A stretch of DNA of 64,000 nucleotides from Aliihoeflea sp. 40Bstr573 (lineage in GTDB: Bacteria > Pseudomonadota > Alphaproteobacteria > Rhizobiales > Rhizobiaceae), in NCBI RefSeq assembly GCF_024105655.1, contig NZ_JAAAMH010000009.1, positions 1-64,000 of the forward strand. Direction: 5' to 3'. A program made the position numbers and the translations under genes. Under the pieces are notes generated by a model. It was not told where the DNA came from. It saw nothing but the letters and a program-made list of their open reading frames with translations, and did not search any database. Of the stretch, positions 82-14,998 are shown piece by piece. Position 1 is the first letter of the stretch; the number at the start of each line of letters is the position of its first letter.

Positions 82-753
82 TCAATGCACTAACATTCCA
101 GCCGGACCCGTCAGTGGGGGCTGATCATGCTCGTACTGTGCCTGTGGGACGGAACCAGTCTTCGAATTCCCGACCAGCGGAATGGCGAGGATGGGAATGA
201 TGAGCATCATCGCGCTCATGATCATCAACGTGTCCGACCAGCCATAGGCGTCGATCAGGCCTTGGCTGAGAGGCGCGAAAATGAACATGCCTGCCGACCC
301 GGCCGCCGTGCCGATACCGAAGACGATCGACCGCTTTTCTGGCGGCGTGTTGCGCCCGAACGAGGCGAGCACGATCGAGAACGAGCTTGCCGCGACCCCG
401 AGGCCGACAAGGACGCCGCCGGAGATATGCAGCATGGTCGGCGTGTCGGCGGTCGCCATCAGCGCGAGGCCGGCTGCGTAGAGGAGGCCGCCGAAGGAAA
501 GAACGCGCCATGTGCCGTAGCGGTCGGCAATTGCGCCGAAGATCGGCTGGCCAAGGCCCCACAGAAGGTTCTGGATCGCCATGGCGAGACCGAACGTCGT
601 ACGGTCCCAGCCCTTTTCCGCCAGCATCGGCAACTGGAAGAAGCCCATGGCCGAGCGGGGCCCGAAAGCCATGCCGGCAATGATGCAGCCGCAGATGATC
701 AAAAGCCACGGCACGGGGCGCGTGGCTGGGCGGGCGGCGGAAATGGTTGTCAT
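82..753 (-). pseudogene. MFS transporter, N-terminal half only
   Basis: The 223 codons give about six hydrophobic helices (roughly residues 14-35, 50-68, 85-102, 108-130, 143-162 and 173-194) with an MFS motif-A-like loop GAIADRYG near residues 73-80. Full-length MFS carriers have about 400 residues and twelve helices, so this is one half of a transporter. After about residue 205 the sequence stops looking like a transporter loop and ends at TGA (82-84); no second half is readable in any frame before the window edge. The ATG at 753 has no strong Shine-Dalgarno. Substrate unknown. A perfect inverted repeat lies just upstream. It is probably a decayed gene or a rearrangement junction; an assembly or sequencing error is the alternative. 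Confidence 0.6.
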
Positions 754-1335: not shown

Positions 1336-2202
1336 CTATTGTGATGGTGCCGCCCGCAGTAGACGCGGTGCGACTGGGATCGTCAGCCCCTTCGCCTCGA
1401 AAGCGGCCTTGGCCTTTTGCGTCATGTCGATCTTGGTTTCCCAGAAATCCGCAGTCGCAGTCCAGTAGTGCAGCGTGACGCCGACGGCCGCGTCGCCGAG
1501 CGTGGCGACGAAGGTTTCCGGCGCCGGCTCTTCGAGTATGCGCCCGTCTTCTGCGGCAAGATCGAGGAGCACCTGGCGCGCGGTCGCGACGTCGTCGCCA
1601 TAGGCGATGGTCAGCGCCAGTTCCGTGCGTCGAAGCGGATTGCGCGTCGCATTGGTCACGGGCACGTTCCAAAGGAGACTGTTGGGCGCGAAGATATAGA
1701 GCCCGTCCGCGCCGCGCAGTTCGGTCGCGAAAAGTCCGATTTCCTCGATCGTGCCGGATATGGTCGGCGTGGTTATGAATTCGCCCACGCGGAAAGGCCG
1801 CAGCACGAGGAGCATGATGCCGGCGGCGATGTTCTGAAGCGTCCCCTGCAGGGCAAGGCCGACGGCGAGGCCGGCGGCGCCGAGCGCGGCGATGATGCTC
1901 GTGGTCTGGACGCCGAACTGCGCCAAAGCCGTCACCGCGACGAGGATCAGGATCGTGTAGCGCACGACCTTGGAGAGAAACCGGCGCAGGGTCTCGTCGA
2001 CGCCCTTGATCCTCCCCAAGGCGGAATAAAGCCAGCGCTCGAAGATGCCCGCCGCGATATATCCGATGAAGAGGAGGACGATCGCGCCAACGAAAGACAG
2101 TGAATAGGCGCCGATCAGCGCGCCGGCCTCGCGCAGCGCCATTTCGCTCATGGTCACCGCGTCCGTCGCCCGAGTTTCCAGTTCGTTCATTGGTGATTCC
2201 AT
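1336..2202 (-). CDS. MscS-family small-conductance mechanosensitive channel
   Basis: The 288-residue protein has the size and plan of a minimal MscS channel that releases solutes when membrane tension rises after osmotic downshock. Helices lie at about residues 28-52, 79-97 and 103-135; the third carries the Gly/Ala-rich pore-lining pattern AALGAAGLAVGLALQG and runs into LRPFRVGEF, the hallmark entry to the cytoplasmic beta domain. A C-terminal alpha/beta vestibule follows. Two starts are possible (2202 and 2190, MNELETRA); neither has a strong ribosome-binding site, so the longer form is given. It is divergent from the GNAT-C39 gene. Confidence 0.9.
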   Translation of the reverse strand: MESPMNELETRATDAVTMSEMALREAGALIGAYSLSFVGAIVLLFIGYIAAGIFERWLYSALGRIKGVDETLRRFLSKVVRYTILILVAVTALAQFGVQTTSIIAALGAAGLAVGLALQGTLQNIAAGIMLLVLRPFRVGEFITTPTISGTIEEIGLFATELRGADGLYIFAPNSLLWNVPVTNATRNPLRRTELALTIAYGDDVATARQVLLDLAAEDGRILEEPAPETFVATLGDAAVGVTLHYWTATADFWETKIDMTQKAKAAFEAKGLTIPVAPRLLRAAPSQ

Positions 2203-2393: not shown

Positions 2394-3518
2394 ATGGCAT
2401 CCGCACCCACCGCATCAGGCATCACGCTGCGCGCCGCCCGCATCGGCGACGAGGACGCACTGGCCGCCCTCGAGGCCCGTGTGTTCACCCATGACCGGAT
2501 TTCGCGCCGCTCCTTCCACAAGCTGATCGAGCGTTCGACCGCCGAGACGACCGTCGCGATCAAGGACGGCGTGATCGTCGGTTATTGCATGGTGTTGTTC
2601 CGAAAGGGCAGCGGCGTCGCGCGGCTCTATTCCATCGCGGCCGACGAGCACATGCAGGGAACTGGCCTCGGGCGCACGCTGCTCGCTGCCGCGGAGCATG
2701 CCGCCTACGAGCACGGCCGCATGCTCCTGCGGCTTGAGGTGCGCGAGGACAATCCGCGCGCCATCGCGCTTTACGAGAAGAACCACTACCGCCGAATCGG
2801 CATCGAGGACGGCTATTACGAGGACGGTGTTGCGGCGATCCGCATGGAAAAGCTGCTTCATGGCGAGGTGCGCTCGACCAAGGTGCCGTTCTACGCGCAG
2901 ACCTCTGATTTCACCTGCGGCCCCTGCTGCCTGATGATGGCGATGGCGCATTTCGACCCTGACTACGTACCCGAACCTGTCAAGGAAATCCGTCTTTGGC
3001 GCGAGGCGACGACGATCTTCATGATGTCGGGACCCGGCGGCTGCGAACCCTTTGGCCTTGCTGTTTCGGCGCATGAGCATGGCCTGCGCTCCGAGATCTT
3101 CGTCTCGCATGAAGGCCCACTCTTCCTTCAATCCGTGCGCGACAAGGAAAAGCGCCGCGTGATGCTGCTCGCGCAGATCGATTTTCGCGCACGCATCGCC
3201 GAATACGGCGTGACCGTCCACGATCGGGCGTTCGTGCTCGACGATATTCGCACCGCCTTGAAACAAGGGCGCCTCGTGATGGTTCTGATCTCGGGCTTCC
3301 TGATGTTCGGCAAGAAGGTGCCGCATTGGGTTCTGGCCATCGACGATGATGGCGACCACATATTCATCCACGATCCATGGGTCGAGGAAGAGCACGGCGA
3401 GACGGCCTCCGACGCGGCGAACGTGCCGGTGCCATATGAGATGTTCATGCGAATGGCGCAGTTCGGCCATCCCCCCTTGCGGGCCGCCGTCATGCTCGGA
3501 GACAGACGAAAAAAATGA
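2394..3518 (+). CDS. GNAT acetyltransferase fused to a C39-like cysteine peptidase
   Basis: A two-domain 374-residue protein. Residues 10-155 are a GNAT fold with the acetyl-CoA loop QGTGLG (88-93) and the RimI-like segment LRLEVREDN. Residues 165-370 form a papain-like C39 peptidase domain with a complete set of catalytic residues: Gln169 (YAQTSDFTCG), Cys175, His311 (KVPHWVLAID) and Asp327 (HDPW). GNATs transfer acetyl groups to amines; C39 peptidases usually cut leader peptides after Gly-Gly. No transporter or precursor peptide is next to it. The stop overlaps the RimK-like start as ATGA, so the two are translationally coupled. The ATG chosen has AGGAAG about 10 bases upstream; a stronger Shine-Dalgarno precedes an out-of-frame ATG at 2357. 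The substrate is unknown. Confidence 0.85.
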   Translation: MASAPTASGITLRAARIGDEDALAALEARVFTHDRISRRSFHKLIERSTAETTVAIKDGVIVGYCMVLFRKGSGVARLYSIAADEHMQGTGLGRTLLAAAEHAAYEHGRMLLRLEVREDNPRAIALYEKNHYRRIGIEDGYYEDGVAAIRMEKLLHGEVRSTKVPFYAQTSDFTCGPCCLMMAMAHFDPDYVPEPVKEIRLWREATTIFMMSGPGGCEPFGLAVSAHEHGLRSEIFVSHEGPLFLQSVRDKEKRRVMLLAQIDFRARIAEYGVTVHDRAFVLDDIRTALKQGRLVMVLISGFLMFGKKVPHWVLAIDDDGDHIFIHDPWVEEEHGETASDAANVPVPYEMFMRMAQFGHPPLRAAVMLGDRRKK

Positions 3519-4981
3519 CCTGGGTCATCCTGACCGGCCGCAAGAGCGACCTCGACCAGTTCGAAACCCCTCACAAGATCATCACCAACCGAGACTACCT
3601 CACCCACCCCTCCCTGTTTCGCACGCAACGCCCGAAGATCATCAATCTGTCGGGCTCCTACGCCTATCAGAGCCGCGGCTACTATGCCTCGCTCCTGGCT
3701 GGATCGCGCGGTCACCGGATAATTCCGTCGGTCGAGACCATGATCGACCTGTCGGAAAAGAAGCTCTACGAGGCCTCGCTGCCCGAGCTCGAGCAGACGC
3801 TCAACCGCTGCCGCAAGGAACTCGGCGGAGCGTTTCCAAGTCGGATCGGCGTGTTCTTCGGCATAGGACCGTCGAAGGCCTGGGACCGCTTCGCGCGGCT
3901 TCTCTTCGACTGGTTCCGCGCGCCCGCATTGGAGGTGACGATCCGCGACAATGGCGAATGGGCCTCGATTGGCCGCATCGGCTTCCTGCCGCTGGCCCGC
4001 ATGAAGGAAGACGAGAAGACGCGTTTTCTCGACGCGCTTGACACCTACACCGCGCGCGAGTGGCGCGACACCAAGCTGCGCACGCCCTCGCGCTATTCCT
4101 TCGCGACGCTGGTGGACCCCAAGGAGGAATTGCCGCCATCTTCCATTGCCTCGCTCAAATACTGGTCGCGCATCGCCGCCAAGATGGGCGTCGAGGTCGA
4201 GCCGATCAGCAAGCGCGACCTGCCGAAACTGGCCAATTACGACGCGCTGTTCATTCGAGAGACGACCACGATTTCAAACCACACCTACCGCTTCGCGCGC
4301 CGCGCACAGCAAGAGGGCATGCCTGTCATCGACGACCCGCTGTCGATGATCCGCTGCACCAACAAGGTCTACCTCAACGAGTTGATGGAGGCGCATGACG
4401 TGCCGGTGCCGCCGACGGTAACGATCGCAGGCACGGCTGATTTGCAACACGCAGCCGACATGCTCGGCTTTCCGCTGGTCTTGAAGATCCCCGACAGCGC
4501 GTTTTCACGCGGCGTGAAGAAGGCGAATGATTTTGAGGCGCTGAAATCCCTTGCCGCCAAATGGCTGGAAGATTCCGATCTCCTGGTCGCGCAGAAATAT
4601 TCGCCGACGGATTATGACTGGCGCATCGGGGTCCTCGGCGGGCAGCCGCTCTTTGCCGTGCAGTATCTCATGGCCAACAAGCACTGGCAGATCGTCAATC
4701 ACGACCGACGCGGCAAGCCCGATGAGGGCGGCTTTCGCGCCTTCACGCTGGCGCAGGCGCCGGCTCATGTGGTCGAGACGGCGGTCCGCGCCGCTCGCTG
4801 CGTCGGCGACGGGCTCTATGGCGTCGACCTCAAGGAGATGCCGAGCGGCGAGATCTATGTCATCGAGGTCAACGACAACCCCAATCTCGAACACGGCGTC
4901 GAAGATGCCGGCGAGAAGGACGAAGTCTGGGTGCGGCTGACGAAGTGGTTCTTGAACAGGCTTGAAATGCAGGGGCGCTAG
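3515..4981 (+). CDS. RimK-like ATP-grasp ligase with RLAN N-terminal domain
   Basis: The 488-residue protein has an N-terminal region (about 1-200, starting TWVILTGRKSDLDQF) matching the RLAN domain found ahead of some RimK-like ligases, then an ATP-grasp domain at about 215-485. Visible ligand residues are the ATP lysines Lys284 (CTNKVYL) and Lys324 (LVLKIP) and the metal set Asp438, Glu451 and Asn453 (DLKEM ... IEVNDNPN). RimK-like enzymes join an amino acid to a carboxylate through an acyl phosphate, so a peptide or amino-acid amide ligation in the cytoplasm is expected; the substrate cannot be told. It shares ATGA with the GNAT-C39 gene, and its end overlaps the convergent HD gene by 4 bases. 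Confidence 0.85.
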   Translation: MTWVILTGRKSDLDQFETPHKIITNRDYLTHPSLFRTQRPKIINLSGSYAYQSRGYYASLLAGSRGHRIIPSVETMIDLSEKKLYEASLPELEQTLNRCRKELGGAFPSRIGVFFGIGPSKAWDRFARLLFDWFRAPALEVTIRDNGEWASIGRIGFLPLARMKEDEKTRFLDALDTYTAREWRDTKLRTPSRYSFATLVDPKEELPPSSIASLKYWSRIAAKMGVEVEPISKRDLPKLANYDALFIRETTTISNHTYRFARRAQQEGMPVIDDPLSMIRCTNKVYLNELMEAHDVPVPPTVTIAGTADLQHAADMLGFPLVLKIPDSAFSRGVKKANDFEALKSLAAKWLEDSDLLVAQKYSPTDYDWRIGVLGGQPLFAVQYLMANKHWQIVNHDRRGKPDEGGFRAFTLAQAPAHVVETAVRAARCVGDGLYGVDLKEMPSGEIYVIEVNDNPNLEHGVEDAGEKDEVWVRLTKWFLNRLEMQGR

Positions 4982-5586
4982 TCGACAGCCGCCTCGATCT
5001 CTGCAAAGCGCGCCAGAAACGCGTTCTGCACCAGCAATGCGGCCTGCGGTTCCAGCGCGAGTTCGCCAGCTGTGACTCCGGTGGGCCGACCGAAGAATTT
5101 CACCGCCTCGGCCATGCCGAATCCGGCAAGCCGCGTCGCCTCGTGATAGGCGGCGATCTGGTCGGCGCGCTTGATGGCCTTCTTGATTGCCGCAGGAAGT
5201 GCTGGGGGGAGTCCGAACCGCAGATGGATTGCCACCTGCAGGCGATGCTCGACGACGCGATAGCTGTCGCCGATCTGCCGCTTGAAGGGCGAGATCATGT
5301 CGCCGATCACATATTCGGGCGCGTCGTGCAGCAGGGCCGCAAGATGCCAGCGTGGCTCGAACTCGGGTTCGATGGAGCGCAGGATCGTCTCGACGACCAG
5401 CGAGTGCTGCGCGACGGAGAAAGCGTGCGCTCCATGCGTCTGGCCATTCCAGCGCGCGACGCGCGCCAGCCCGTGCGCAATGTCGCTGATCTCGATGTCG
5501 AGCGGTGAAGGGTCGAGAAGGTCGAGCCTGCGCCCCGACAGCATACGCTGCCATGCGCGCGCGGGGGCGCCCGGACGGTCCGGCAT
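4978..5586 (-). CDS. HD-domain hydrolase, YfbR-like
   Basis: The 202-residue protein carries the HD metal-binding pattern: His61 (SVAQHS), His87-Asp88 (ALLHDAPE) and Asp142 (RADQIAA). The compact single domain and the spacing AQHS ... LLHDAPEYVIGD resemble the YfbR/5'-deoxynucleotidase branch of HD phosphohydrolases, which act on nucleoside monophosphates. The substrate here is inferred, not shown. Its ATG overlaps the stop of the upstream ygfZ gene by one base (TGATG), so the two are co-translated. Its 3' end overlaps the convergent RimK-like gene. Confidence 0.8.
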   Translation of the reverse strand: MPDRPGAPARAWQRMLSGRRLDLLDPSPLDIEISDIAHGLARVARWNGQTHGAHAFSVAQHSLVVETILRSIEPEFEPRWHLAALLHDAPEYVIGDMISPFKRQIGDSYRVVEHRLQVAIHLRFGLPPALPAAIKKAIKRADQIAAYHEATRLAGFGMAEAVKFFGRPTGVTAGELALEPQAALLVQNAFLARFAEIEAAVD

Positions 5587-6431
5587 CAGTCGGTCGCGCT
5601 CGTCTCGGGAAGCGTGTAGCGCGCCCAGCCCGGAATGCTCAGCGTTACCCGCGCATCGCCCGCGACAATATCCTGGCCGGCGTCGAGCGCATCCTTGACG
5701 CGGTCGATCCGCACGATGGCGATGCCGCTGCCGTCTGCGCCTGAGCCGAGCGTACCGATCGGGCGTCCACTGACCGTGATTTCCGTCCCGGGGTCAGGCA
5801 GCGCATCGTCGCTTCTGGCGATCATGACCCGCCGCCGCGCGGTCCCGCGGTGCTGCATACGCGAAACGACCTCCTGCCCGACGAAGCAGCCCTTTTTCAG
5901 CCCGACACCGCCGTTTTGGTCGTAGAGAATATCGTGGGGAAAGGCGTCCGAAAGCGCAAAGTCAGTTCCGCTTTCGGCGATGCCGCTGTCGACACGCAAC
6001 CTGGTCCATGCCGCGTGGTCGGCGGTGGCCGCCGGCAAGGCTTCATAGTGCCGCCAGACCGGATCGGAAAAGCGCAGGTCGCGGACGCTTGAATCAGATT
6101 GCGAAGCACCAGATTCATCGCCCCATGAAACAGCGACAAGCTCTTGTTCCTGCTTGGCGATCGTGACCTTGGCTCGCAGCTTGTAGATGGTGAGCCGCTT
6201 GACGAGATCATCCGCGACATCCGCCCGGCATTCGAGGCGGAATCCCTCTCCCGAGCGGGAGATCAGGAAGTCGAACAGAATCTTGCCCTGCGGCGTCAAC
6301 AGCGCGCCGGGTCGCGCATCGCCGCGCGCCAGCGAAGCGAGATCGGGCGTGATCAGGTTCTGCAAAAAGTGCTCGGCCTCCGGCCCGTCCACGGTGACGA
6401 AAGCGCGCGAGGTGAGATGAACGGTCGGCAT
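5586..6431 (-). CDS. ygfZ: Folate-binding protein YgfZ (tRNA-modifying/Fe-S repair GcvT homologue)
   Basis: The 281-residue protein has the family signature KKGCFVGQE at about residues 178-186, with the conserved Cys, and the GcvT-like fold start HLTSRAFVTVDGPEAEHFLQ. In E. coli YgfZ is a folate-dependent factor that helps maintain Fe-S enzymes such as MiaB. The start at MPTVHLTSR was chosen over an upstream in-frame ATG at 6509, which would overlap the neighbouring gene and add an Arg/Pro-rich stretch foreign to the family. Upstream on the same strand is a secreted protein of unknown function; downstream the HD hydrolase is coupled by a one-base overlap. Confidence 0.85.
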   Translation of the reverse strand: MPTVHLTSRAFVTVDGPEAEHFLQNLITPDLASLARGDARPGALLTPQGKILFDFLISRSGEGFRLECRADVADDLVKRLTIYKLRAKVTIAKQEQELVAVSWGDESGASQSDSSVRDLRFSDPVWRHYEALPAATADHAAWTRLRVDSGIAESGTDFALSDAFPHDILYDQNGGVGLKKGCFVGQEVVSRMQHRGTARRRVMIARSDDALPDPGTEITVSGRPIGTLGSGADGSGIAIVRIDRVKDALDAGQDIVAGDARVTLSIPGWARYTLPETSATD

Positions 6432-6505
6432 GGTGCGACTCGGCGGTCTGTTGCGATGACGCCGCTTAGGTAGGCGCAAGCGCCGGCCGGGGCAAGCCGG
6501 CGACC

Positions 6506-7192
6506 TCACTCACCGCCGACGAAAAACTCCCACTCGCCGTCCGGCGAGATGCCGACACGAAAGAAGATATAGGTGCCGTAGGCTTTCATCTCCTCGTAGT
6601 CGCCGGCGGTGACGAGCTTGAAGAGCTCGACGCGCTGCGGCGGCGTCAAGTCGTCGATCGGGATCGCCAGGAAGTACGGCCAGGCATAGATCTCGTTGTC
6701 GGTTCCGATGTCCAGATGAACAAACCCGGCGGCGAGCACCTCATAGAGGATTGCAAGGATTTCGTGGCCTTGGTCGTCACCCGAAAGGCTTTTCAGGTGC
6801 TCGATCGGGTCACCTTCGACCGCGGACAGCGATAGCTGCGTCGCGTTCGCGCCGGTGGAAAGGAACGCGCGCAGCGCCTCGACGTCTCCCGCCTTGCAGG
6901 CCGCCATGATCAATTCGCGTATGCGCCGAACCGGTTCGGGCAGCAGCATGACGTCGTAGAGGACGCGGGGAGCCGCTTCAGGCGCGGACGCGCCCGGCAT
7001 GGCGGGTCGTATCGGGTCGGGCAGGGGCACTTCAAGCGACGGCATCTCGGGCTGGGGCAGTTCCATCGCCGGCTCGTCTTCTGCCGGTGTCTCGACTTGC
7101 GCTTCCTGCAACTCACTGAAGGCATGCGCCGGCGTGGCCAGGAGCAGCGCGGCTAAGCACAGAGCGGGCAGGGTGGGCACGGTGATCATCAT
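6506..7192 (-). CDS. Secreted protein of unknown function with Pro-rich linker
   Basis: A 228-residue protein with a clear signal peptide (residues 1-24, ending ATPAHA), then an acidic Pro-rich stretch (about 28-72, with repeated PxPxM/L spacing), then a mixed alpha/beta globular part (about 78-228) with no motif I recognise. The C-terminal part contains YAWPYFLAIPIDDLTPPQRVE and ends in GEWEFFVGGE. I do not recognise the family; it looks like one of the conserved rhizobial periplasmic proteins. It precedes ygfZ on the same strand by about 75 bases. Two adjacent ATG codons (7192 and 7189) could start it. Confidence 0.7.
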   Translation of the reverse strand: MMITVPTLPALCLAALLLATPAHAFSELQEAQVETPAEDEPAMELPQPEMPSLEVPLPDPIRPAMPGASAPEAAPRVLYDVMLLPEPVRRIRELIMAACKAGDVEALRAFLSTGANATQLSLSAVEGDPIEHLKSLSGDDQGHEILAILYEVLAAGFVHLDIGTDNEIYAWPYFLAIPIDDLTPPQRVELFKLVTAGDYEEMKAYGTYIFFRVGISPDGEWEFFVGGE

Positions 7193-7619: not shown

Positions 7620-7991
7620 CTAATTGCCAAAGCGCGCGGCTGTGTCGCGAGTAAGCTTTTCGCCTTCTTCCATGTAGCGGGAAATGGCTTCGATCGCCGA
7701 AGGGGTGCAGCGCGTGTAGTTGGCTGCGAAGGCCTGGTAACCGGTATTGAAGCTGGCGATGAATTTGGCGCGGCGCGCCTCGTCCGGCTGCTCGGCCTCC
7801 AACAGCCGCTCCATATGGCCGAGCCATTCGTCGCTCGCCTCGTCGCACAGATTGCGCAGGAAATGCAGCGATCCCAACACTTCGGACAGCCGCACGAGAT
7901 TGGCTTCGAAGGGCGAATCCGCCGCGCGCGCGCCAGCGCCCGGCGTCATTACGAGGCCAGCAATGAGCAGGATGCGGAAGAGAAGGGGCAT
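7620..7991 (-). CDS. TIGR02301-family secreted protein
   Basis: The 123-residue protein has a signal peptide (residues 1-23, ending GAGARA) and the helical body of the alphaproteobacterial TIGR02301 family: LxxLSEVLGSLHFLRNLC, then WxxxMExLLxAE, then FNTGYQAFAANYTRCTPSA with two conserved Cys. The function of the family is not known; a periplasmic location follows from the signal. It lies downstream of the NUDIX gene on the same strand with an 89-base gap. Confidence 0.75.
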   Translation of the reverse strand: MPLLFRILLIAGLVMTPGAGARAADSPFEANLVRLSEVLGSLHFLRNLCDEASDEWLGHMERLLEAEQPDEARRAKFIASFNTGYQAFAANYTRCTPSAIEAISRYMEEGEKLTRDTAARFGN

Positions 7992-8080
7992 GCGCAGGCG
8001 CGATCCGTCAGGTAAAGGTCTTCGTTTAGAACATCGCGCCGAAAAGTGGTATCCAGCGCGCGGTATATTCTGCAGCCGAT

Positions 8081-8491
8081 CTATTCATCTGTCTTCGGGC
8101 CGGATTGTGACGTGGCGACTTCGCGCGCGAATTCCAGGGTGGACGCGGTGATGTCGAGCCGTTCCATCTCGCCGATCGTGTACCAGCCAAGGCTCTCTGC
8201 ATCGTCGCCGGCGACCGCATCGCCAGCCGCTTCATGCGCGCGGAAGACGTCGAGCTCATAGACCATGTCTTCGCCCTCGATTTCGATGCGCCGCAGGAGC
8301 ACGAGTTTGCCGGCCATGAGCCCCGTTTCTTCCATCAGTTCGCGCCGGGCCGCATCCTCCGCGCTCTCGCCCGCCTCGCAGCGCCCGCCTGGAAAGGCAT
8401 ACAGACCGCGCGCCGCGCCGCGGCCGCGCCTGACGAGCAGGAAGCGGCCGTCCTTGAACAACGCCACGGAGGCGGCAGCGATGCGCTTCAT
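8081..8491 (-). CDS. NUDIX hydrolase (MutT-like)
   Basis: The 136-residue single-domain protein carries a complete Nudix box: G-x5-E-x7-REL-x-EE-x-G-L is read in GRCEAGE ... RRELMEETGL at about residues 35-57. Nudix enzymes hydrolyse nucleoside diphosphates linked to another moiety, with Mg2+ held by the Glu residues of the box. The N-terminal ASVALFKDGRFLLVRRG is the usual first strand pair. The specific substrate (oxidised dNTP, ADP-ribose, other) cannot be read. It is divergent from the SRAP gene, with a 46-base shared promoter gap. Confidence 0.85.
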   Translation of the reverse strand: MKRIAAASVALFKDGRFLLVRRGRGAARGLYAFPGGRCEAGESAEDAARRELMEETGLMAGKLVLLRRIEIEGEDMVYELDVFRAHEAAGDAVAGDDAESLGWYTIGEMERLDITASTLEFAREVATSQSGPKTDE

Positions 8492-8537
8492 CGGATAGGC
8501 TCTCCCGTCCGTCCGTCCACTCCACTACATAGGGGCC

Positions 8538-9296
8538 ATGTGTGGACGTTTCGTATTGACCCAGACGGCGGCGCAGATCGAGGCGCTGTTCGCGATCATG
8601 CCGCTCGAGGGCGGCCTGGCACCTCGCTACAACATCGCGCCAACGCAGCCGATCCTGATGATCGCCGCCGGCTATCGCCGCGAGCCGGGCTCGAACCTGC
8701 CCGACCGCCGCGCCGAACTGGTGCGTTGGGGTTTGCTGCCGTCCTGGGTTAAGGACGTCAAGGCGTTTCCGCTGCTGATCAATGCCCGTTCTGAAACGGC
8801 CCCCGAGAAGAACGCATTCCGTGCCGCGCTACGCCACCGGCGCTCGCTGGTGCCGGCATCGGGCTTTTACGAGTGGAGAAGAGACGGAAAGGGCCGGCCG
8901 CAGCCTTATTTCCTGAAGCCGCGCCATGGCGGTGCATTGGCCTTTGCCGGGCTGATGGAGACCTACATCGACCCGAACGGCAGCGAAATGGATACGGGTG
9001 CGATCCTGACGACCTCGGCAAACGAGACGCTGGCACCGATTCACGACCGGATGCCGGTCGTCATTCATGAGCAGGATTTTGCCGAATGGCTCGATTGCGT
9101 CGGCAACGAGCCACGTGACGTCGCGCATCTGATGCGCCCGGCCGAGCCGGATCTGTTCGAGGCGATCCCGGTGTCGGATCGCGTCAACAAGGTCGCCAAT
9201 GACGACCCGGATCTCATCCACCCGGCGCTGGTCGCGCCGGAGCCTGTTGCCGCGAAAAAGCCGAAGCCGAAGACGGATCAGCTCAGCCTGTTCTGA
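8538..9296 (+). CDS. SRAP-family protein (YedK/HMCES-like abasic-site sensor)
   Basis: The 252-residue protein begins MCGRF, so Met removal exposes the catalytic Cys2. Also present are Asn82 (INARSET), Glu112 (PASGFYEWR) and His169 (PIHDRMPVVI), the conserved active-site set. SRAP proteins form a thiazolidine cross-link between Cys2 and abasic sites in single-stranded DNA and so shield them. The Lys/Pro-rich C-terminus (KKPKPKTDQLSLF) ends in a QLSLF sequence that resembles a beta-clamp-binding peptide; that reading is inference. Confidence 0.9.
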   Translation: MCGRFVLTQTAAQIEALFAIMPLEGGLAPRYNIAPTQPILMIAAGYRREPGSNLPDRRAELVRWGLLPSWVKDVKAFPLLINARSETAPEKNAFRAALRHRRSLVPASGFYEWRRDGKGRPQPYFLKPRHGGALAFAGLMETYIDPNGSEMDTGAILTTSANETLAPIHDRMPVVIHEQDFAEWLDCVGNEPRDVAHLMRPAEPDLFEAIPVSDRVNKVANDDPDLIHPALVAPEPVAAKKPKPKTDQLSLF

Positions 9297-9301
9297 GTTC
9301 G

Positions 9302-9469
9302 TCAGGCGGACTTCTTCATCGTCTGCTGCGACTTCGGCTCCGCCGTGCGCTTGCGCGGGGCGGCGAGGACGGCCGCCAGGATCGCCGCCGGCCCGATGTT
9401 GCGGTAGTGCTGGGTCAGCGACATGTATTCGGCGCGTTGACGTTCGGTCTTGGTGGCGAGGACGGGCAT
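9302..9469 (-). CDS. Small conserved hypothetical protein (55 aa)
   Basis: A 55-residue basic protein starting MPVLATKTERQRAEYMSLTQHYRNIG and ending in a Lys/Arg-rich tail. The start is chosen because AGGAGA lies about 8 bases upstream of this ATG; a longer in-frame reading from 9589 adds 40 residues of atypical composition. The short form resembles small rhizobial hypothetical proteins. No domain is recognised. It is convergent with the SRAP gene (5-base gap). Confidence 0.6.
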   Translation of the reverse strand: MPVLATKTERQRAEYMSLTQHYRNIGPAAILAAVLAAPRKRTAEPKSQQTMKKSA

Positions 9470-9656
9470 TTCCTGATCTCCTGTTTGCAATGTTCGGCGG
9501 GTACCGGTCCGAACTGGGGATCGAATAAGACCAAAGCTTGGCCGCAGGGATGGCCGATGCGGACAATTCAGTTCAATTTGCACCGGCATGCTTAACGCAT
9601 TCTTTAAGCGGCATTTTCGCCACGCAAACGGCCATTTGGCGGCCCTATTTCCGCCC

Positions 9657-9685
9657 TTGACGCGCCTTGATGGCAGCGCGATAAA
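9657..9685 (+). promoter_or_regulatory. Predicted promoter for the cysS operon
   Basis: TTGACG and GATAAA are separated by 17 bases, near consensus for a housekeeping sigma factor. The expected start of transcription is about 9691-9693, giving a leader of about 140 bases before cysS. Confidence 0.55.
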
Positions 9686-9691
9686 GCAGCC

Positions 9692-9736
9692 ATGAAAACG
9701 CAGCTCGCCATTACCGGCATTTGCATTATCGGCTAG
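9692..9736 (+). CDS. Possible leader peptide MKTQLAITGICIIG
   Basis: A 14-codon frame starts where transcription is predicted to begin, so it would be translated as a leaderless mRNA. It contains one Cys codon and ends about 100 bases before cysS, with a hairpin between. A leader peptide sensing Cys-tRNA charging is one reading; a chance short frame is the other. Confidence 0.25.
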   Translation: MKTQLAITGICIIG

Positions 9737-9785
9737 CAGCCTGCTGGTCCGGACGTTTTCGCCCTTCCGATCGTGAACGAGAAAA

Positions 9786-9807
9786 CCTCCCGGCCAGCCG
9801 GTGGAGG
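9786..9807 (+). promoter_or_regulatory. Hairpin in the cysS leader
   Basis: CCTCC/GGAGG outer arms with an inner CGG/CCG pairing make a short stem about 25 bases before the cysS ATG. There is no U-run, so it is not a classical terminator; it might occlude or expose the translation start. Confidence 0.3.
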
Positions 9808-9832
9808 GCTAGTTTCGTGGGAAGGTTGACGC

Positions 9833-11259
<1,427 letters not shown>

Positions 11260-13470: not shown

Positions 13471-14403
13471 ATGAACGAGAGCCAGATCGAACGCCCCGAG
13501 CCCCTGCGCGGCTTCGCCTTTGCGGGGGCGGCCTATCTTTTCTGGGGCTTCATGCCGCTCTTGATGAAGGCACTCGACCACGTGCCGGCGGCAGAGATCG
13601 TCGCCCACCGCGTCATCTGGTCCTTGCCGGTCGCGGCGATCATCCTCGTCGCCATGGGCCGCACCGGGGATATCGCCCCGGCGTTGCGCTCGCCGCGCAC
13701 CCTGGTCATGGCGACGCTGACGGCGGCGCTCATCTCGCTCAACTGGGGCATCTACATCTGGGCGATCGCGGTCGACCGTACGGTCGAGACCGCGCTCGGA
13801 TACTACATCAATCCGCTGGTGACGGTGCTGATGGGCGCCGTGCTGCTCGGCGAGCGGCTGTCGCGCGCACAGGTCGTCGCCGTCGGCCTCGCGGCAATTG
13901 CGGTTGCGATCCTGACCTGGGATGCGGGCGGCTTGCCATGGGTCTCGCTGGTGCTGGCCTTCACCTTTGCGGGCTATGGTTTTCTGCGCAAGACACTGCC
14001 GATCGGTCCGAGCCAGGGCTTCTTCCTCGAAGTCCTGATCCTCACGCCACCTGCAATCTTGTGGCTCGGCTATCTTGCGGTGACCGGCCCCACCGCCTTC
14101 GGCTTCGACATGCCGCTCACCATGGCGCTTCTGATCTTGTGCGGGCCTGCGACGGCGATCCCGCTCATCCTTTATGCCTTCGGCGCGAAGCTTTTGAAAA
14201 TCTCGTCGATCGGCATCATGCAGTACATCGCACCGACGATCATCGCGACCATTGCCGTTTTCGTCTTCGGCGAGCCCTTCGGCGCGGCCCGTCTCGTCGC
14301 CTTCGGCTTCATCTGGGCGGCGCTCGCCATCTATACATGGTCGATGTTCTCGCAGCGCAAGCTCGGCGCGGCCGAGGCGGTGGCGGCTACATCCGCTCGA
14401 TGA
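13471..14403 (+). CDS. rarD: RarD-type EamA-family transporter
   Basis: The 310-residue protein is an inner-membrane carrier of the drug/metabolite transporter superfamily with about ten hydrophobic helices in two EamA repeats. It begins GFAFAGAAYLFWGFMPLLMK, the usual RarD start, and has the conserved AHRVIWSLP and GYYINPLVTVLMG segments. RarD is named from chloramphenicol sensitivity in Pseudomonas; the true substrate is not settled. The ATG at 13471 was preferred to one 66 bases upstream. Its 3' end overlaps the convergent LOG gene by 17 bases. Confidence 0.85.
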   Translation: MNESQIERPEPLRGFAFAGAAYLFWGFMPLLMKALDHVPAAEIVAHRVIWSLPVAAIILVAMGRTGDIAPALRSPRTLVMATLTAALISLNWGIYIWAIAVDRTVETALGYYINPLVTVLMGAVLLGERLSRAQVVAVGLAAIAVAILTWDAGGLPWVSLVLAFTFAGYGFLRKTLPIGPSQGFFLEVLILTPPAILWLGYLAVTGPTAFGFDMPLTMALLILCGPATAIPLILYAFGAKLLKISSIGIMQYIAPTIIATIAVFVFGEPFGAARLVAFGFIWAALAIYTWSMFSQRKLGAAEAVAATSAR

Positions 14404-14998
14404 TCGCCTGATCGCCTTCCGCGTCCGCGGTCGCGCGCGCCGCGTCCAGGATCGACGGCACGATCTTCGACGGCTCGTCCACCACCAGCGGGCGCACCAT
14501 GTGCTGCGAGTGGATGAAGCCCTCGGCCTTCATATGGTCGATCAGCGCCAGCATCGGGTTCCAGAAGCCGCCGACATTGCCGAACACCATCGGCTTCTGG
14601 TGCCGGCCGAGCTGCGCCCAGGTCATGATCTCGACGATTTCCTCGACAGTCCCGATGCCGCCCGGCAGCGCGACGAACGCGTCGGAGCGCTCGAACATCG
14701 CATGCTTGCGCTCGTGCATGTCCTCGGTCAGAATCACCTCGTCGAGATGGTCGAGCCCAGTCTCGTCGCCGGCTTCCTTGCGGATCAGGAAGCGCGGAAT
14801 GATGCCTGTGACGTGGCCGCCGGCATCGACGGCACCATTGGCGACGGCGCCCATGATGCCTTTGAGCCCGCCGCCATAGACGAGCGTGAGCCCGGCCTCG
14901 GCGATGGCGTTCCCGAGCGCGCGCCCGGCTTCGAGATAAACCGGGCTGTTGCCCGGCGAGGAACCGCAATAGACGCAGATGGATCGAATCGTGCTCAT
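14387..14998 (-). CDS. LOG-family protein (TIGR00730, nucleoside-5'-monophosphate phosphoribohydrolase)
   Basis: The 203-residue protein has the Rossmann-like fold start SICVYCGSSPGN and the catalytic motif PGGIGTVEE, shared with plant LONELY GUY. Family members remove ribose 5-phosphate from cytokinin nucleotides or from AMP-like nucleotides. In rhizobia a link to cytokinin is often proposed; nothing here proves it. The start at 14998 (MSTIRS) was chosen; another ATG is 9 bases upstream. Confidence 0.88.
   Translation of the reverse strand: MSTIRSICVYCGSSPGNSPVYLEAGRALGNAIAEAGLTLVYGGGLKGIMGAVANGAVDAGGHVTGIIPRFLIRKEAGDETGLDHLDEVILTEDMHERKHAMFERSDAFVALPGGIGTVEEIVEIMTWAQLGRHQKPMVFGNVGGFWNPMLALIDHMKAEGFIHSQHMVRPLVVDEPSKIVPSILDAARATADAEGDQAIIERM

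Follow-up and report, generated by a model that had tools for sequence, protein, structure and literature searches.

Two overlapping genes on the forward strand, at positions 2394-4981 of a 64-kb stretch of DNA from Aliihoeflea sp. 40Bstr573 (the window; positions 1 to 64,000 of contig NZ_JAAAMH010000009.1), are the subject of this analysis. The first open reading frame (2394-3518) encodes a 374-residue fusion of a GNAT acetyltransferase domain (Pfam PF00583) with DUF3335 (PF11814), a C39-like, papain-fold peptidase domain; we refer to this fusion as GNAT-C39. The second (3515-4981) encodes a 488-residue RimK-like ATP-grasp ligase (PF08443) that carries an RLAN domain (PF14401). The genes are joined by a 4-base ATGA overlap on the same strand (3515-3518), and an earlier note, made from the letters of this DNA alone, had given both frames and their coupling exactly. 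An identical overlap is found in 14 of the 48 relatives in which a GNAT-C39 gene was called.

The two genes are genuinely paired, look active and are common among the genomes sampled. Of 299 Pseudomonadota genomes, drawn evenly, 56 had RLAN and 47 had DUF3335. Both families were found in 46 genomes, only RLAN in 10, only DUF3335 in 1 and neither in 242 (Fisher p 4.5e-43, uncorrected for shared ancestry). The earlier note had taken the two genes for a functional unit, which is borne out by 46 of the 56 RLAN and 46 of the 47 DUF3335 genomes; co-occurrence is thus common rather than rare, and the catalytic residues described below are retained rather than lost (36 of 36 aligned rows for the ligase and 31 of 31 for the peptidase). 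In 44 of the 46 genomes with both families, DUF3335 lies within 5 kb of RLAN, accounting for 44 of 50 DUF3335 matches, and for 15 of the 59 RLAN matches no DUF3335 is that near. The 44 close pairs are arranged in several ways: GNAT-C39 precedes RLAN on the same strand in 27, the genes are divergent in 13, RLAN comes first in 3 and one pair is convergent. As the order varies while adjacency stays, this points to a functional link between the two genes, and not to frozen, inherited synteny alone.

A closer partner of the ligase than the peptidase is the GNAT itself. When RLAN loci were fetched and searched with tblastn, 113 of 115 had a GNAT no more than 2.5 kb away from the RLAN gene, as did 49 of the 51 representatives (at most 70% RLAN identity, window included). 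Some of the fetched loci are the best 80 of 575 matches, and these are therefore biased to close relatives of the window; the count of 115 omits L185, which comes from another collection, and the DUF3335-only loci L072, L089, L096, L097 and L098, which have no RLAN. Where DUF3335 is missing from an RLAN locus, a stand-alone GNAT is nearly always present, and at one locus (L067) the ligase itself carries an N-terminal GNAT fusion, with a separate, convergent GNAT-C39 gene. A tree built from 46 ligases requires nine changes of the label C39 versus GNAT-only, at least seven of these changes being forced by well-supported branches. Pairwise distances of the two proteins are correlated at r 0.42, whereas 2000 permutations gave no value above 0.21; these permutations leave the shared species tree in place. 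With genes called by a simple script rather than a gene finder, and at the clustering threshold used, any other gene cluster is present within 6 kb in at most 4 of the 51 representatives, so that no third partner recurs more widely. The near-invariant unit is thus GNAT plus RLAN ligase, and the C39 domain is dispensable across the family. Of the three-activity unit proposed in the earlier note, acetyltransferase and ligase stand, while the peptidase as a fixed member does not.

The GNAT domain (residues 1-155; 2394-2858) was assigned by Pfam (E 2e-16), by an AlphaFold model searched with Foldseek, and by residue alignment. The model of the whole GNAT-C39 protein has a mean pLDDT of 89.6 and a pTM of 0.84, and its top matches in the PDB are RimI and archaeal Ard1, both N-terminal acetyltransferases. 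The landmarks of the domain are Glu115, Tyr127, a Tyr141-Tyr142 signature and an acetyl-CoA loop around Gln88-Gly93. In RimI, Glu103 was proposed as the base and Tyr115 as the acid of the reaction (PMC3347575). In a 109-row alignment, which contains close relatives, the residue equivalent to the former, Glu115, is present in 109 rows, and Tyr127, equivalent to the latter, in 101 (the others being 7 Phe and 1 Val); Tyr141 is found in 104 rows and Tyr142 in all 109. In N-terminal acetyltransferases, a Tyr-Tyr pair of this kind makes contact with the backbone of the peptide. As a control, a single sequence, we used the GNAT of the N-acetylglutaminylglutamine (NAGGN) synthetase of the same genome, which has Ser in place of the Glu and lacks the Tyr-Tyr signature. 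Judged by these residues and by the model, the GNAT is of the RimI/Ard1 N-terminal-acetyltransferase type. The RimI-type residues, together with this control, tip the scales towards the N-terminus of a peptide or protein and make such a terminus a likelier substrate than a free amino-acid conjugate. The earlier note had suggested one small peptide or amino-acid conjugate as the substrate, of which the peptide still fits and the free conjugate has become less likely; its further suggestion, a cytosolic metabolite, may still apply but is not the better reading with a GNAT that favours a terminus.

The peptidase domain (residues 164-368; 2883-3497) was recognised by its PF11814 match (262.7 bits against a cut-off of 25, E 2.5e-78) and by residue conservation. 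Gln169, Cys175 and His311 are conserved in all 31 rows bearing DUF3335, while residue 327 is either Asp (25 rows) or Glu (6 rows). The earlier note had placed the catalytic residues of the pair correctly, and all three active sites look intact. Its C39-like residue set is thus sound, but the domain is DUF3335, distinct from the leader-cleaving C39 of exporters: the exporter-type model PF03412 is not among the Pfam matches at E 0.001, and the Peptidase_C39_2 match (PF13529) stays below its cut-off (20.8 versus 24 bits). Because the Foldseek matches listed for the GNAT-C39 protein are GNAT proteins, structure does not place the peptidase fold independently.

The ligase consists of an alpha/beta RLAN domain (residues 26-173; 3590-4033; E 1.3e-38, 132.5 bits against a cut-off of 25), followed by a pre-ATP-grasp part and an ATP-grasp domain (residues 238-460; 4226-4894), the latter recognised as LysX/ArgX/RimK-like by profiles and Foldseek. 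The RimK Pfam domain (PF08443) matches residues 283-460 at E 8.4e-6, after the RLAN domain, and R2K_3 (PF14243) matches residues 338-455 above its cut-off (32.2 versus 26.3 bits, E 1.5e-7), while against the RimK equivalog NF007764 the protein reaches 27.2 bits, far under the cut-off of 331. All 36 RLAN proteins aligned have Lys284, Lys324, Asp438, Glu451 and Asn453, and also His396 and Asn455; in a wider alignment of 50 ligases, His396 falls just short of full invariance. This wider alignment (A3) holds 49 loci beside the window and a further one (A4) holds 34, in each case picked for spread; L179 was omitted from A3, as its match spans 1712 bases and is probably frameshifted, and L086 was omitted from alignment A2. 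The AlphaFold model of the ligase has a mean pLDDT of 89.5 and a pTM of 0.62. Its best Foldseek matches are ArgX with the bound carrier protein LysW and LysX/ArgX, and the list also includes D-Ala ligases and RimK, among the latter RimK-RpsF; all 50 listed rows are ATP-grasp ligases, with at most 322 alignment columns, and leave the fold of the RLAN domain unplaced. In fold and residues, the ligase thus resembles the LysX/ArgX/RimK amino-acid ligases.

The association itself is not new. The Pfam text for PF14401 is reported to name a GNAT-papain gene as a neighbour of RLAN and to predict the function only as peptide ligation or modification. Iyer, Abhiman, Burroughs and Aravind reportedly described RLAN/RimK-like ATP-grasp proteins with a GNAT-papain neighbourhood computationally in 2009 (Mol Biosyst 5:1636). 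The window has the same domains in the same gene neighbourhood, and its pair belongs to this already predicted, uncharacterised module; what we add to the earlier description are the counts over 299 genomes, a GNAT core that does without C39, the catalytic pair of RimI type and the NAGGN GNAT as a control. The GNAT-DUF3335 fusion is also mentioned in PMC10318531. In the open-licence literature we found no experimental study of the RLAN-DUF3335 pair, and thus no experimental function, although RLAN is present in 56 and the pair in 46 of the 299 genomes and the active sites are conserved.

Several characterised or predicted systems are comparable in part. RimI, which acetylates the alpha-amino group of ribosomal protein S18, and archaeal Ard1 have the fold, the Glu/Tyr pair and the Tyr-Tyr signature in common with our GNAT; unlike RimI, the latter scores below the family cut-off, is fused to a peptidase and adjoins a ligase. 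RimK, the C-terminal glutamate ligase of S6, and LysX/ArgX, which ligate to the carrier LysW, have the ATP-grasp fold and catalytic residues of our ligase; unlike these enzymes, the latter has an extra RLAN domain, and its family coexists with RimK in 40 of the 56 RLAN genomes. The Rlo operon (RloABC) of Pseudomonas aeruginosa is a different ATP-grasp/peptidase system (PMC12239564), in which an ATP-grasp enzyme and a peptidase act in one process, as we propose for the window pair. It comprises a secreted retropepsin (RloA) and an inactive transglutaminase membrane protein (RloB), and the main text of that paper mentions neither GNAT nor C39; no RloA- or RloB-like gene was found in the six window neighbours scanned, a scan that did not extend to relatives or the rest of the genome.

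What might the pair do? We consider the chances about even that it is a two-gene module, probably cytosolic, for editing peptide or protein termini. In this scenario, the RLAN-ATP-grasp enzyme would work like RimK and LysX/ArgX at protein C-termini, activating a carboxylate with ATP and coupling an amino acid to it, and the RimI/Ard1-like GNAT would acetylate a free alpha-amino terminus. The fused DUF3335 domain would cleave the same substrate, and in doing so either lay bare the end to be capped by the GNAT or take off what the ligase had added. The pairing, its conservation, the conserved catalytic residues and the likeness of both catalytic modules to enzymes of protein termini are what was observed; that there is one common substrate, in what order the steps follow, which amino acid is added and what the peptidase does, we infer. 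If this reading is correct, a further post-translational system exists beside RimI and RimK, and the RimI-type signature makes the question accessible to terminal proteomics, beyond metabolomics.

A number of observations speak against terminus editing. We found no substrate, and the pair has no recurrent neighbour that could encode a ribosomal or other target: rplU/rpmA/obgE-like genes are within 6 kb in just 2 of the 51 representatives. The GNAT protein reaches 73.5 bits with the RimI equivalog TIGR01575, under its cut-off of 86.4, and GNATs of the NatA/RimI type might take short peptides too, so that a small peptide product would fit as well. The ligase is also similar to D-Ala ligases, which make a free dipeptide. 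Two of the fetched loci, L088 and L170, lack an adjacent GNAT (the L088 genome carries a GNAT-C39 gene on a different contig), and on the P. aeruginosa plasmid pZYPA1927 (L185) an RLAN gene (7902-9491) stands without any GNAT in its 17-kb stretch, a few genes away from those for a glutamate/aspartate ABC transporter, gamma-glutamyltransferase and asparaginase.

The best surviving alternative, which we regard as a tentative but serious one, is a small-molecule pathway. Here, the GNAT would N-acylate an amino acid or dipeptide, the ligase would extend it to an acyl-di- or oligopeptide, and C39 (with DUF2817 where present) would degrade the product, an osmolyte or storage compound like N-acetylglutaminylglutamine amide; such a maker of acyl-peptides would mean a new class of peptide metabolite. 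NAGGN synthetase (TIGR03103), which occurs elsewhere in the window's genome, likewise combines GNAT with ATP-grasp, and the fusion in L067 does the same. The strongest evidence for this alternative comes from genome G006 (L072, 1396-12409). There, the synthetase belongs to a complete NAGGN operon (TIGR03104, TIGR03103 and TIGR03106) that also encodes an amidotransferase and an M42 peptidase, and genes for GNAT-C39, DUF2817 and the DUF155 cluster come next, on the strand of the operon. The RLAN ligase of G006 is located elsewhere (L071), with a stand-alone GNAT, and DUF2817 stays by GNAT-C39 though the ligase is apart. This arrangement supports small-peptide substrates and weighs, like the points above, against protein termini. 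DUF2817 gives a strong match in 40 of the 299 genomes; in full length it co-occurs with RLAN in 25 of them (p 2e-11, uncorrected for ancestry), and it is no more than 6 kb from RLAN in 14 genomes and from DUF3335 in 15. All of these close cases belong to families f28 and f29, and the domain is absent from the window's own genome, so we rejected it as a general partner. Further in favour of a small molecule, DUF3335 without a recognised GNAT stands beside peptide-type ABC transporter genes on S. meliloti pSINME02 and in L097. Moreover, the ligase matches R2K_3, and for R2K.3-GNAT operons, in which an ATP-grasp ligase also lies beside GNATs, ligation possibly followed by acyl capping of peptides was proposed (PMC4431377); as described there, R2K.3 is defined by ExGD, in place of ExN, in its last strand, whereas our ligase has ExND (Glu451-Val-Asn453-Asp454) and the RLAN domain in addition.

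On the other hand, the RimI-type catalytic and Tyr-Tyr residues are absent from the one NAGGN GNAT compared, and NAGGN synthetase is a single fused protein while the window pair consists of separate genes. With TIGR03103 (cut-off 569 bits), the GNAT protein scores 26.2 bits and the ligase is unmatched among the hits listed. RLAN is no more frequent alongside NAGGN synthetase than chance would give (8 of 28 NAGGN genomes versus 56 of 299 overall, Fisher p 0.20), and a transporter or amidotransferase cluster recurs in at most 4 of the 51 representatives.

Terminus editing may also be taken further, into a widespread, so far uncharacterised protein-tagging system that acts on both ends of one target, independently of RimI and RimK. 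The GNAT would cap as RimI does, the ligase would tag the C-terminus as RimK does, and the fused papain-type domain would erase or process, making the pair a compact write-cap-erase device; we find this rather doubtful as it stands.

It seems unlikely that the pair is a second RimI/RimK-like set dedicated to one known ribosomal or translation protein. Both enzymes do resemble modifiers of ribosomal proteins, rplU/rpmA/obgE-like genes lie by the pair in nine loci, and the window's genome has no match to the canonical RimK model over its cut-off. However, canonical RimK is found over the cut-off in 103 of the 299 genomes, 40 of them among the 56 with RLAN, so the pair is not a general RimK replacement, and ribosomal genes occur within 6 kb in only 2 of the 51 representatives, a weak signal when all families are taken together. 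A translation link is suggested by the nine loci but weak among the representatives.

A locus for a ribosomally synthesised and post-translationally modified peptide or bacteriocin, in which C39 would cut the leader and ATP-grasp would make macrocycles, has very little to commend it although both folds are known from such loci, as PF03412 is not matched, the downstream gene is convergent and overlapping, the six scanned neighbours hold no ABC transporter, and none of the short frames (18-80 residues) overlapping 2203-2393 gives a convincing tblastn match in 19 relatives (best E 0.12). The latter two results agree with the earlier note, which had seen neither an exporter nor a precursor gene nearby. 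The neighbours scanned with Pfam were those at 82-753, 846-1289, 1336-2202, 4978-5586, 5586-6509 and 6506-7192, and the absence of ABC transporters refers to these, the rest of the 64-kb window not having been scanned for exporters.

As to the surroundings of the pair, an HD-domain gene (4978-5586, reverse strand) converges on the RLAN gene and overlaps its end. Upstream, an MscS-type channel gene (1336-2202, reverse strand) is separated from the pair by a divergent intergenic region (2203-2393), which contains one promoter-like match on the forward strand (2263-2290; a consensus match only). An MscS-type gene lies opposite GNAT-C39 in the window and in 8 relatives (L103, L105, L107, L115, L116, L120, L122 and L130), but a link to hypo-osmotic stress was rejected: a member of this cluster is found within 6 kb in only 2 of the 51 representatives, and we therefore treat the neighbour as local synteny. 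A defence system was likewise rejected, with no PADLOC match at E 0.01. Further upstream, a partial frame of 223 residues for an MFS-type transporter (82-753, reverse strand; MFS_1) covers positions 4-192 of the 347 in the model, half its length, and is perhaps a truncated gene. Among the best 80 of 575 matches, the ligase of Aliihoeflea aestuarii is 90% identical to that of the window over residues 1-488.

Some minor observations concern other loci. The rplU/rpmA/obgE-like genes, named by eye, lie within about 6 kb of RLAN in L066, L101, L154, L155, L158, L159, L162, L173 and L174, with rpmA not called in L101. A DUF155 (RMND1/Sif2-type) gene is found near the pair in L073, L075, L077 and L094, of which L077 only was checked with Pfam. 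Copies of DUF3335 apart from RLAN exist in the window's own family, in L097 (genome G197; 4633-5694 and 13689-14897) and L098 (genome G274; 9645-10739); none of these has a GNAT match in Pfam, and one of the L097 copies is near an oligopeptide-type ABC transporter ATPase gene. On pSINME02 (L186), the GNAT-less DUF3335-type peptidase (4953-5621) closes an ABC transporter operon that seems, by its make-up, to be of the peptide type, and lies beside asnB, formyltransferase and aminotransferase genes; this is possibly a separate, small peptide-metabolite cluster.

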